Origin: an uncultured Opitutia bacterium
Lineage (GTDB): Bacteria; Verrucomicrobiota; Verrucomicrobiia; Opitutales; Opitutaceae
Assembly (NCBI GenBank): GCA_903872505.1
Contig: CAIQKV010000008.1
Span: forward strand, 1 to 64,000
Length of the DNA: 64,000 bases
Direction of reading: 5' to 3'
Part shown: positions 25,829 to 45,917 of the stretch, piece by piece
Numbering within the stretch: position 1 is the stretch's first letter
Layout of the letters: each line of letters begins with the position of its first letter
Notes under the pieces: model-generated
What the model was told of the DNA's origin: nothing
Database searches by the model: none
What the model saw: only the letters and a program-made list of their open reading frames with translations
Position numbers and translations under genes: made by a program

Positions 25829-25958
25829 GGGTGGAACGCGTTGTCCCTAACGCGCTTTATTGGAGATGCGGCGCCCTCGCCGCGTCCAAGGCCTGTCCGC
25901 GGCGGGGGCGCCGCGGCTCCATTCCAAGCCAACGCGTTGAGACAACGCGTTCCACCTC
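25829..25958. repeat. Nested inverted repeat, two palindrome families
   Basis: Outer arms 25829-25854 and 25933-25957 (GTGGAACGCGTTGTC core) enclose inner arms 25861-25887 and 25898-25921 (GCGGCGCCC.CGCCGCG core). The inner left arm shares 22 identical bases with the reverse complement of 43675-43696 inside the lyase gene. The outer core resembles the repeat at 51231-51315. It fills most of the intergenic gap. Confidence 0.85.
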
Positions 25959-42233: not shown

Positions 42234-42280
42234 ACCATGCTTCGGTTGCCAAGGGTAAGCAAATGGCGCGTGCGGCTCCG

Positions 42281-42349
42281 TGGCACGGGTCTCCTGACCC
42301 GTGAGGGGAAGACCCGGCGCCAGACACGGGTCGGGAGACCCGTGCCACG
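42281..42349. repeat. GTGGCACGGGTCTCC hairpin, copy 1
   Basis: Left arm 42281-42304 and right arm 42326-42349 (24 bases each) pair with one mismatch; the left arm starts GTGGCACGGGTCTCCTGACC. It lies 23 bases past the lyase stop codon. Related copies are at 44194-44270 and 45855-45917. Confidence 0.85.
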
Positions 42350-42353
42350 GTGA

Positions 42354-42370
42354 GCAGGCGAGACGCCTGC
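42354..42370. repeat. GCAGGCG-AGA-CGCCTGC hairpin
   Basis: A perfect 7-bp stem with a 3-base loop, ending 2 bases before the stop codon of the lyase gene on the minus strand. It may act in 3' end formation or be another short palindromic element. Confidence 0.6.
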
Positions 42371-42371
42371 G

Positions 42372-45300
42372 CTACTTCTGCCAGCTCAGGATCGCGGGCA
42401 GGCGGACGGTTTCGCCGACGGCGCCGTCGACGAGCCAGACATCCTCGCCCGGGGCGATCTTGGCGGTCGGCGGGGCGGCGAGGGTGAGCGTGCCGTCGTC
42501 CTTGGCCTCGAGCACGGTGGCGAGCGGCTGGCCGGCGCGGTTGCACAGCGTGGTGCCGCGGTAGATCGCGAAAATGCGCAGGGCGGTCTTGCTGTGGACG
42601 GTGGCGCCCTCGACGGAAGAGACGTGCACGAGGCCGACGCGGAGGTCGTCCTTCACCGTGAGTACGAGGTCATCGCCCTCACGGGTGGCGGCGATGATGG
42701 TTTGGACGGTGTCGCGCAGCGGATTCGACAGGTGCAATACGCGGCCGGGAAGCGTGGTTAGGTCGGGTATGTGAGAATGAGAATTGGCCGTGAGGCGCAC
42801 ACGCAGTTTGCCTGTCGCAGTGTCAACGGCTGTGATTTTCCCCTCGAACCCAGAGGACGTCAGCATGCGATCGATCTGGAGGAAGCTCCCTCCTGCAAAA
42901 AAGGCGCGAGTGATTTGATTGTTGGCGTCGACGGAAACCACAACCACCTCAGCGTCGGTGAAGCCTGATGGACCGCCGGTTGGCATGAGCCTCGCGATCG
43001 TGTCGATGGTGCGGTGAAAAACAAAATCGCGCGTCCCATCAGCCCGCGTAACTGTGACTACAGTTCCACATTCAAAAGGAAGCGGAATAGTGTGTTTGGG
43101 GTCGTCATCATTTCCACAGATGAAGGGCTCCTTGCTGAGATCATCGCGATGCACGGCCGTGATGAACGGCTTGGTAGTGAATGGCTCGAGCACGGCCACA
43201 TAGTGGCTTGTGAGTTCTGGTTTGTCGGTTGCGCTCGTGCGTCGGGCGATGAGATAGGTCACGATCTCCGGATACTTGATCGGTGAGACGCGGGCCTCGG
43301 CGCGGATGAGTTCCTGGCCGGGCTGGGGGAGGACGCGGATGCGGAGGCGGGCGTTGGGATCCCTGTCGTGGACGTATTCGGCGACGAAATCGTCGGCGCC
43401 GGACTGCAGGTGCTGCACATTGACGAGGTGCTGGAAGCCCGAGCCTTCATAGTTGAGGTAGCTGCCCTTGAAGTCCTTCGCGCCGCGGACGGGGTCGTCG
43501 TAAAGTTCGCCGACTTTCACGTTCGGGCCCGCGAGCGTGCCCGGTTCGGGTGCGGACCACGTCCCGCCGATCGCGGTGAATTTTCCCGTCGGGCCGTGCA
43601 GGCTGTAGTCGTGTTGGCGGCCGCCCGTCACGTCGAAGAAATCGACGACGTAGCCGCGGTCGTGGGAAGCAGGTGGACGCGGCGAGGGCGCCGCATCCCC
43701 ATTTTGAGCCGCATTTCCGTTCTGATTTCCTGGCGATCCTTGGAGCCGGGGCGCCCCCGCCCCGGTGTCTGAATCAGGCACGTCCACCATCACGAGTGTG
43801 CGCTGGTAAAGTTTGGTCTGCGGATAGGTGTCGGAAGCGTCGGCGATGAGCGCGCGGGCGAAAGGGCCGTCGGCGAAGAGCTGCAGGTGGCCGGCGGGGT
43901 TGGCGGGCTGGCGGTGGGCGTCGACAGTGACGGTGTTGTGCGAGATCGTGGTTTTCGACCAGGTGAAGATGCTCGAGTTGAACTCGTTGGCGCCGTCGGG
44001 ATAGCCGAGGTCGGGCATCATGTCTTGGCCGTTGGCGAACAGGTCGAAGTGCAGGCGGTCGTGATGGTAATGTGCGACGTGCAGCCCGTAGAACAGGTCG
44101 ACCGAGCGCGTGTCGGCGGGGTTGTTGAGGATGGCGGAGCCGTAGCCGCTGAAGATTCGCGACGGCTGCGGCGGAAGCATGCGGCCGTCCGGCGTGGCAC
44201 GGGTCTCCTGACCCGTGGGTTTGGCTTCGGCCCCCTGGTCAGCCATCACGGGTGAGGACACCCGTGCCACATCGAGTGGCGGCGAAAACAGCGCGTCGTA
44301 GCTGCCAAAGCTTTTCTCGCCGGTGGCGCCGATACCGGCGAGGAACGCAGCGTAGCGCGGGTCGCCGTAGAGCGCGAGGCCGCGCTGGTAGGTGAGCGAG
44401 TCGTTGCCGATGATCGGGGCGTAACGGTTGCTGCTGTCGCCGAGCGGGGCCGAGTGCCGGCCGGTGGTGATGAAGTCGAGCGGCTCGTCGAACATCCGCT
44501 TCAGCCGCGGCAGGGTCGCGATGTCATAGCCGAGTTTCTTGAGGAGCTCGGCGGACGCGGCGAGGATGCGGGTCCAGACGAAGTTGTAATCGGGCGATTC
44601 GTGCGGGGCGCCGTCGCGGTAGACGGAATCGTAGAGCGCGTAGTCGAAGCCGATGCGGAGCAGGTGGCCCTCGGGGCGGTGGAGCACCTCGTCGACGTAG
44701 CGCTGGTTGTCGCCGTGCTGGCGGACGACGGCGAGCATGAGCAGCGCGCGCTGGTGGGTGCCGTAATTGCCGCGGATCTTGTCATCGAAGTAGGCGTCGA
44801 TCGCGTCCTCGAGGTAGTTGGCCTCGATGCCGGCGCGAAGCTGCGCGCCGGTCTCGCCGTAGAACTGCTGCAGGGCGGTGTCGCCGTCGATGGTCTCCCA
44901 GAGGTTGTCGTAGGCCTCGGCGAGCGAGGGCGCGACCTGGAAGGCCTCCCAGATGAGGTTCACGACCTTGCCGGTGTAGCGCGTGCCCTGCTCGCCCATG
45001 AGCTGGCCGAAGCGGGACTGCTGCTCGTGATTCATGTTCGGGTAGACCGCGGCGACGCGGCGGAAGAGCACCAGCGCCTTGTGCGCGTACGTGCGGTCGC
45101 CGGTGAAGAGGTAGGCGCGGCTGAGGGAGAGGATGCCGTTGACGATGCAGCGACTCTCGAGGCCGGCGCCCTGCCAGACGACGTGGTTGGCGTGGGCGAC
45201 GAACCAGTAGCGCTGGCCGTCGGGCGCGGCCCAGCCCCAGCCGTCGTCAACGATCTTGCCGGTGAGCGTGGACTTGTCCCGGAAGCCGCTGCGGTAGTAC

Positions 45301-45797
45301 GCGCCGTAGTCGTTGTCCGGGTAGACCTCGCCGCCGATCGGACACTTCACCTTGAACGGCAGCTTCGGGTCGACGATCCACGGGAAGGAGGAGCCCTTGA
45401 TGCCCTCGAAGATTTTCCGGCCGTGGATAGGGCAGCCGGCGTTGCAAAGCTCGACGGCGCGCGGCACCTCGGCGGTCGTGACGAGGTCGCGCAGGGCCTC
45501 GTCGCTCCACGCGGCCCAGTAGCGGGCCTCGGCCAGGGACGGCTCGAGGGCGGCCTGCGCGGCGGGGTACCGGGCGACGTTGGCGCGGGCCTGGGCGATC
45601 TCGGCGTCGGTGTGGAGCGTGCGCGCGGACTTGAGCGGAAACTGCGGCGTGCGGACCTTGGGCGGGAGCATCACGCCGTGCGGGAGCTGCGGCTGAACCG
45701 GGCCGTCGGGGAACCACGGGTCGCGCGCGGCGAGCGGGGCGAGCGGGACCAGGAGGGCGAGCGCGGCGGGCAGCAGGCGGGAGAGGGCGGGGCGCAT
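42372..45797 (-). CDS. Heparinase II/III-family polysaccharide lyase, repeat-invaded
   Basis: A 1141-residue secreted protein with leader MRPALSRLLPAALALLVPLA, which sets the start over an upstream in-frame codon. An N-terminal (alpha/alpha) toroid (about 30-480) precedes the heparinase II/III beta-sandwich. The hallmark HYHHDRLHFDLFANGQDM with PDLGYP near residue 575, and SHNTVTVDAHRQ, match alginate/heparin lyases; His and Tyr in these would be catalytic. Length exceeds typical relatives (about 650-900). Two segments, residues about 507-536 and 674-708, are encoded by palindromic repeats. Codons for the last part (42765-43265) are noticeably poorer in G+C. A frame intact throughout argues that it is functional. 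Confidence 0.85.
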   Translation of the reverse strand: MRPALSRLLPAALALLVPLAPLAARDPWFPDGPVQPQLPHGVMLPPKVRTPQFPLKSARTLHTDAEIAQARANVARYPAAQAALEPSLAEARYWAAWSDEALRDLVTTAEVPRAVELCNAGCPIHGRKIFEGIKGSSFPWIVDPKLPFKVKCPIGGEVYPDNDYGAYYRSGFRDKSTLTGKIVDDGWGWAAPDGQRYWFVAHANHVVWQGAGLESRCIVNGILSLSRAYLFTGDRTYAHKALVLFRRVAAVYPNMNHEQQSRFGQLMGEQGTRYTGKVVNLIWEAFQVAPSLAEAYDNLWETIDGDTALQQFYGETGAQLRAGIEANYLEDAIDAYFDDKIRGNYGTHQRALLMLAVVRQHGDNQRYVDEVLHRPEGHLLRIGFDYALYDSVYRDGAPHESPDYNFVWTRILAASAELLKKLGYDIATLPRLKRMFDEPLDFITTGRHSAPLGDSSNRYAPIIGNDSLTYQRGLALYGDPRYAAFLAGIGATGEKSFGSYDALFSPPLDVARVSSPVMADQGAEAKPTGQETRATPDGRMLPPQPSRIFSGYGSAILNNPADTRSVDLFYGLHVAHYHHDRLHFDLFANGQDMMPDLGYPDGANEFNSSIFTWSKTTISHNTVTVDAHRQPANPAGHLQLFADGPFARALIADASDTYPQTKLYQRTLVMVDVPDSDTGAGAPRLQGSPGNQNGNAAQNGDAAPSPRPPASHDRGYVVDFFDVTGGRQHDYSLHGPTGKFTAIGGTWSAPEPGTLAGPNVKVGELYDDPVRGAKDFKGSYLNYEGSGFQHLVNVQHLQSGADDFVAEYVHDRDPNARLRIRVLPQPGQELIRAEARVSPIKYPEIVTYLIARRTSATDKPELTSHYVAVLEPFTTKPFITAVHRDDLSKEPFICGNDDDPKHTIPLPFECGTVVTVTRADGTRDFVFHRTIDTIARLMPTGGPSGFTDAEVVVVSVDANNQITRAFFAGGSFLQIDRMLTSSGFEGKITAVDTATGKLRVRLTANSHSHIPDLTTLPGRVLHLSNPLRDTVQTIIAATREGDDLVLTVKDDLRVGLVHVSSVEGATVHSKTALRIFAIYRGTTLCNRAGQPLATVLEAKDDGTLTLAAPPTAKIAPGEDVWLVDGAVGETVRLPAILSWQK
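43675..43764. repeat. In-frame palindromic element within the lyase gene (second)
   Basis: Arms 43675-43698 and 43741-43764 match the inner arms of the nested repeat at 25861-25921, with 22 identical bases on one side. Translated on the minus strand it gives a low-complexity stretch (TGAGAPRLQGSPGNQNGNAA) atypical of the enzyme. Confidence 0.82.
44194..44270. repeat. In-frame GTGGCACGGGTCTCC hairpin within the lyase gene (copy 2)
   Basis: Arms 44194-44217 and 44247-44270 belong to the same family as 42281-42349 and 45855-45917. On the minus strand it encodes VARVSSPVMADQGAEAKPTG followed by QETRATP, keeping the lyase frame open. Confidence 0.85.
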
Positions 45798-45854: not shown

Positions 45855-45917
45855 GTGGCATGGGTCTCCTGACCCATGTCTGAAGTCCGGAATCACGGGT
45901 CGGGAGACCCGTGCCAC
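45855..45917. repeat. GTGGCACGGGTCTCC hairpin, copy 3
   Basis: Arms 45855-45878 and 45894-45917. It occupies the divergent gap between the lyase start (45797) and the DUF3299 start (45972), so it sits in both promoters' region. Confidence 0.85.

Follow-up and report, generated by a model that had tools for sequence, protein, structure and literature searches.

The DNA analyzed here, referred to as the window, is a 64,000-nt stretch of contig CAIQKV010000008.1 (assembly GCA_903872505.1) from an uncultured Opitutia bacterium, and this report concerns a polysaccharide lyase gene within it that carries two palindromic elements, A and B, in its reading frame. Each element is a dimer of a repetitive extragenic palindromic (REP) sequence, that is, two inverted arms, and the two belong to different repeat families of the genome, F1 and F2.

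42372-45797, minus strand: polysaccharide lyase gene with a heparinase II/III-like C-terminal domain, 1141 aa (open reading frame (ORF), Pfam, Foldseek)
43678-43764, unstranded: element B, F2 REP dimer with heads inward (head-to-head), in frame, residues 678-707
44194-44270, unstranded: element A, F1 REP dimer with heads outward (tail-to-tail), in frame, residues 510-534

The gene comprises 1141 uninterrupted codons within an open frame that extends to 45989, past the likely start codon, and Hepar_II_III_C matches residues 573-669 of its product (Pfam). Foldseek matches the AlphaFold model of the protein to PL40, PL17, and heparinase III lyases (E ~1e-21 to 1e-13), the residues invariant over 16 aligned sequences are present in it, and both flanks of each insert score 50-61 in the same frame by a codon model. 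A first-pass annotation, made from the letters of the window, had described a lyase gene with two palindromic inserts that match copies elsewhere and keep the frame open, and these claims are borne out by the analysis below.

Element A consists of GTGGCACGGGTCTCCTGACCCGTG and its inverted copy; the REP itself reads GTGG-CACGGGTC-TCCT-GACCCGTG and is followed by its inverted partner with the tails facing inward. As single-stranded DNA the element folds at -29.7 kcal/mol (z = -6.7 versus shuffles), and the genome has 34 copies of the 15-mer GTGGCACGGGTCTCC versus 0 of its reversed control. The lyase frame stays open through the element. In that frame the F1 consensus arm gives TGA, and the copy in element A reads TCA by virtue of a two-sided change in the stem; because the same stem variant appears in two further F1 arms of this genome, it need not have arisen inside the lyase gene.

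Element B had been annotated as a palindrome at 43675-43764. Its arms, at 43678-43701 and 43741-43764 with 39 nt between them, are each an F2 hairpin, and the frame again stays open across them. Elsewhere the usual F2 form is TGGAGCCGCGGCGCCCCCGCCGCGG, ~14 nt, and the inverted partner; the order is reversed in element B and in 5 of the 37 two-arm F2 elements in all, element B included. The bare 9-mer GCGGCGCCC had to be discarded as evidence, since it occurs at chance level in the window (7 seen, 9.9 expected), and the claim therefore rests on the longer arm, which is seen twice versus 0.03 expected. Likewise, the view of element B as one folded structure was set aside as weak: the whole element folds modestly better than shuffles (z = -2.2, with 4 of 200 shuffles as good).

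Absence from orthologues and position in the lyase model

Lyase orthologues were found in seven genomes (G059, G085, G015, G094, G049, G021, and G065) and in three named Opitutae/Verrucomicrobia metagenome-assembled genomes (MAGs). Of 30 loci, 12 supplied rows of the alignment (A1); of the rest, L039 is the window itself, L048 was excluded for having its longest frame antisense, and 16 gave weak or short matches, and among five further loci L070 and L071 were excluded as repeats of L041 and L042. The peptide encoded by element A was present in none of the 10 orthologues aligned at its site (site A), and that encoded by element B in none of the nine aligned at site B; with L041 and L069 nearly identical, the 10 orthologues do not amount to 10 independent lineages. 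Orthologues sharing the peptides, which by the first-pass annotation would have spoken against insertion, were thus not encountered. Gap placement is ambiguous in the DNA alignments at both lyase sites and at the site in HrpB described below, and the insertion boundaries are inexact.

Site A is variable in length among orthologues and holds a different insert in G085 (L041) and in two MAGs (L069 and L073). The DNA of L041 and L069 contains a perfect hairpin here, GATTCGCCG-CTCA-CGGCGAATC, whose stem recurs in L073 altered on both sides (GATTTGCCG..CGGCAAATC), and G059 (L040) retains a remnant of it with one mismatch. Separately, residues ~895-920 of the window lyase, around KEPFICGNDDDPKHTIPLPFEC, form a further insert with respect to most orthologues.

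In the AlphaFold model the predicted local distance difference test (pLDDT) score falls below 50 at residues 512-537 (element A) and 676-712 (element B). Of the two inserts, both of which the first-pass annotation had put in the β-sandwich, only element B is found there, in a turn between strands 661-673 and 714-725; element A lies in the inter-domain linker, bounded by the toroid's last helix (501-504) and the sandwich's first strand (547-549). Each element probably adds a floppy or disordered stretch of ~25-30 aa, low pLDDT being weak evidence of disorder.

Repeat families and in-frame copies in the genome

At three mismatches or fewer, the genome contains 50 F1, 83 F2, and 37 F3 arms, versus 0, 3, and 0 for the reversed-pattern controls. 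The heads of F1 and F3 are GTGG (GTAG for F1 in G103), and that of a fourth family, F4, is GTAG. Two-arm elements are predominantly heads-outward (heads-outward/heads-inward: 17/1 for F1, 32/5 for F2, and 13/0 for F3). Instances of a stem pair changed on both sides yet still paired numbered 13 among 49 F1 arms, 10 among 82 F2 arms, and 21 among 42 F3 arms, counts that describe rather than test covariation, as the search patterns admitted some such variants; six chance-like arms were left out (F2 C30:1937, C79:11558, C89:195, and C74:37536; F1 C69:21666 and C61:29021). Among the 12 genomes of the genus, exact F2 arms number 50 in this genome, 40 in G059, 3-10 in six others, and 0 in four.

We examined 76 stretches (307 kb) around repeat copies, containing 94 clusters of F1-F3, and called a cluster in frame when both flanks scored best in the same strand and phase by the codon model and the frame was open across the element. 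Sixteen of the 94 clusters qualified, leaving 14 elements in 12 genes once two chance-like single arms at four mismatches (C30:1937 and C79:11558) had been dropped; the location of the remaining 80 clusters was classed by the codon model alone. When both flanks were required to score above 15, 12 of 94 were in the same phase and open (the two chance-like arms among them), 8 were in the same phase but stopped, 11 lay on the same strand in another phase, 25 had flanks on opposite strands, and 38 had a weak flank. Besides the lyase, the genes hit include those for HrpB, FtsY, RecD2, an ABC-F protein, an OGG1-like glycosylase, and a DEAD-box helicase (NCBIfam, Pfam, and solved homologues), a UxaE-like protein (Pfam, just above cut-off), a TIR-TPR protein, and a family 38 α-mannosidase that carries two inserts. 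Alignment to close orthologues backs 5 of the 14 elements (lyase A and B, mannosidase 1 and 2, and HrpB), and a further four (FtsY, ABC-F, RecD2, and OGG1-like) agree with solved homologues in which the segment is missing or gapped, similarity around the insert being low.

Mannosidase orthologues are present in 11 of the 12 genus genomes, counting this one. Two of the 11 (this genome and G015) have the F2 insert and five (this genome, G015, G106, G085, and G100) the F3 insert, the rest having shorter loops at either site. One stem of the F2 insert has changed on both sides and is still paired, GCGGCG/CGCCGC in this genome versus GCGACG/CGTCGC in G015, with different encoded residues. At the F3 site (site 2) these two genomes read the first arm in different frames, so that the copy was either replaced, independently inserted, or shifted by an insertion or deletion. 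The F2 insert in HrpB occurs in this genome alone among the 11 aligned.

The consensus F2 arm has no stops in any of its six frames. All seven forward-read in-frame F2 arms are translated as Gly-Ala-Ala-Ala-Pro-Pro-Pro-Arg (the probability that all would fall in any one of three frames is 0.0014), the nine read in reverse split 6, 3, and 0 over the frames (p 0.05), and the arginine-rich frames are unused in both directions; this bias is a post hoc observation on few cases.

Further repeats flank the lyase gene or lie elsewhere in the window:

42280-42348, unstranded: F1 REP dimer just 3' of the lyase gene (repeat search; fold z = -7.5)
42354-42375, minus strand: F4 REP (GTAGCGCAGGCGTCTCGCCTGC) overlapping the lyase stop (pattern search; 0 expected in shuffles)
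45855-45917, unstranded: F1 REP dimer 5' of the likely lyase start codon (repeat search)
25861-25921, unstranded: heads-outward F2 dimer adjoining an F3 arm at 25831-25856 (not within the ORFs on which the codon model was trained; z = -6.3)

The TAG stop codon of the lyase is part of the GTAG head of the F4 REP, a copy with a shorter loop; the F4 pattern with a 4-nt loop had no match in the window. Both F2 and F3 occur in 17 clusters (of 29 with F3 and 49 with F2), and in five of these F2 dimers are nested within F3 dimers in the order F3-F2-F2-F3. The nested F3/F2 sites are C36:1164, C37:35578, C50:4027, C50:41363, and C108:57174 in this genome (G000), together with 25831-25921 in the window. 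Such nesting suggests that the spacer of one REP dimer serves as a landing site for another. F4 REPs lie within the spacers of F1 dimers at C28:30379 and C69:23981.

Origin and retention of the inserts

REPINs, dispersed pairs of inverted REPs, were reportedly described by Bertels and Rainey in 2011 together with RAYTs (REP-associated tyrosine transposases). The elements here resemble them in being inverted, dispersed REP pairs and, for F1 and F3, in adjoining RAYT genes in congeners, and differ in that copies lie inside genes, that F2 lacks a GTRG head, and that no RAYT was detected in this genome. PF01797 matches, sequence-diverse and numbering 1-3 each, occur in 9 of the 12 genus genomes, seven of which have a 330-339-aa form; several shorter PF01797 proteins are flanked by a symmetrical hairpin pair of their own. 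When 39 loci around these matches, many of them overlapping, were scanned for REPs, F1 was found on both sides of one RAYT in G103 (L112/L153), while F3 flanks one RAYT each in G015 (L165) and G103 (L166) on both sides and one in G107 (L171) on a single side. On NCBIfam REP_Tyr_transpos the L112 protein reaches 78 bits, slightly short of the cut-off of 80. Its gene terminates in the GTAG head of an F1 REP (L112 1794-1817), much as the lyase stop lies in an F4 REP.

We propose, with a probability of about 0.88, that elements A and B are non-autonomous, REPIN-like REP dimers that entered the lyase gene after its split from the sequenced relatives. The most likely agent is a RAYT, now undetectable in the genome, that would have copied or transferred each dimer in the form of a single-stranded hairpin. 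The copies that survive would be those insertions whose length and stop content leave the frame open and which lie where the protein tolerates an extra loop; selective filtering of this kind, rather than targeting, would account for their survival, and the lyase would presumably still work.

A number of observations weigh against this proposal. No PF01797 match was found in the genome itself, and no match to the G103 RAYT (L112) at E<=1; since the assembly consists of 121 contigs, several of them ending inside REP dimers, and is 94.8% complete, the RAYT may be absent merely from the assembly and not from the genome. The F2 head is TGGRG, neither GTAG nor GTRG, F2 had only chance-like matches (seven mismatches) beside RAYTs, and neither the 30 F2 loci of the genus nor our 76 stretches gave a match to the L112 or L105 RAYT. 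The 39-nt middle of element B had no match of its own. The 16-sequence alignment behind the AlphaFold model offers no partner for the inserts, so that low confidence is expected there in any case, and the HrpB loop varies among congeners from 6 to 30 residues in the same columns. As to the census, the codon model was trained on the 64-kb window alone, one flank scores 11 or less in 4 of the 14 in-frame elements, and that model is the sole basis for five (C25, C28:44153, C37, C59, and C69:40389). In a separate observation on the assembly, contigs C15, C40, C41, C52, C69, C73, C85, C99, and C110 end in or just past a REP arm with its tail toward the end, the terminal arm being an F4 REP in C15, C41, C69, and C73; a RAYT or a larger repeat may have been lost at such ends.

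The repeats might instead spread by template switching or gene conversion between hairpins, with no transposase needed at present. The lack of a detected RAYT in the genome fits this explanation, as do the two-sided, still paired change in the mannosidase F2 stem and the different frames of the first F3 arm at mannosidase site 2. However, new sites such as lyase A, lyase B, and HrpB require an insertion step, F1 and F3 adjoin RAYT genes in congeners, and the missing RAYT may reflect the fragmented assembly; we regard this explanation as unlikely, though worth keeping in view. The inserts could also be retained for a role of their RNA or DNA hairpins in translation pausing, mRNA stability, or supercoiling, the peptide being incidental. 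Stems do remain paired through double changes, a REP overlaps the lyase stop codon, and the gene has F1 dimers on either side, but the occupied sites vary between species, with the mannosidase lacking the F2 insert in 9 of 11 genomes and the F3 insert in 6 of 11, and we hold a hairpin function to be decidedly improbable. That the lyase is a pseudogene in which insertions are free, as two insertions within one gene might hint, is very improbable given its 1141 open codons, its intact invariant residues, and flanks that code in the same frame around both inserts. Finally, despite the variable length of site A, the notion that the peptides are an ancestral low-complexity loop with coincidental palindromes has next to no probability and is rejected, as neither peptide is shared by any aligned orthologue and, at the DNA level, matches to dispersed repeat families greatly exceed those of the controls.

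A bolder reading is that REP dimers inside genes of this genus, far from being dead inserts, form a population that turns over, in which the same loops are hit again by different elements, stems within coding sequence are rewritten yet remain paired, and forward F2 arms are, in the cases seen so far, always read in the Gly/Ala/Pro-linker frame, making REPs a recurrent source of ready-made protein loops. We put this forward as a tentative and rather doubtful suggestion, prompted by site A, occupied by F1 in this genome but by another palindrome in sister species, and by the differing F3 frames at mannosidase site 2.

Relation to known intragenic repeats

The first-pass annotation likened the inserts to the palindromic elements of Rickettsia and knew of no description for this group. 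The latter statement is wrong: according to a 2013 report (PMC3733652), GTAG REPs lie inside genes in several species and are most numerous in Opitutus terrae, where some genes are hit twice. The same text describes one O. terrae family as mostly GTGG-headed, notes that GTAG heads often supply TAG stop codons, lists RNA helicases among the targets in O. terrae, and states that more than half of the inserts across all species are dimers or groups coding for 20-30 aa. O. terrae belongs to the Opitutaceae, class Opitutia, and those relatives of the window that have names carry the label Opitutae or Verrucomicrobia. The window and O. terrae share their class, REP singles and dimers in ORFs, double-hit genes, GTGG heads, TAG stops supplied by GTAG, and RNA helicase targets; the genome differs, and presence and absence across congeners are added here. 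F1-F4 may or may not correspond to the O. terrae families GTAG-17, -19, and -20.

The likeness to Rickettsia holds in so far as mobile palindromes lie in frame in ORFs of recognizable proteins. Rickettsia palindromic elements (RPEs), in the account given in PMC3733652, are in frame in genes of many classes, end in CGTC, and belong to a type of repeat not associated with transposase genes, whereas the elements here are REP dimers with GTGG (F1 and F3) or TGGRG (F2) heads, F1 and F3 being linked to RAYTs.

Because intragenic REPs are reported from O. terrae in PMC3733652, and the same overlap with a stop codon is seen here, the window is a further case of a phenomenon already known since 2013 from a cultured relative. 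In the open-licence literature searched, we found no study of this group that compares which congeners carry and which lack inserts of this kind. The lyase gene and its counterparts in this genome point to another Opitutae lineage in which proteins are lengthened, not disrupted, by a bacterial mobile element, with large REP populations in a genome that has no detectable RAYT. Presence and absence at single sites across congeners would make the lifetime of an insert, its neutrality, and selection on hairpin versus peptide measurable.

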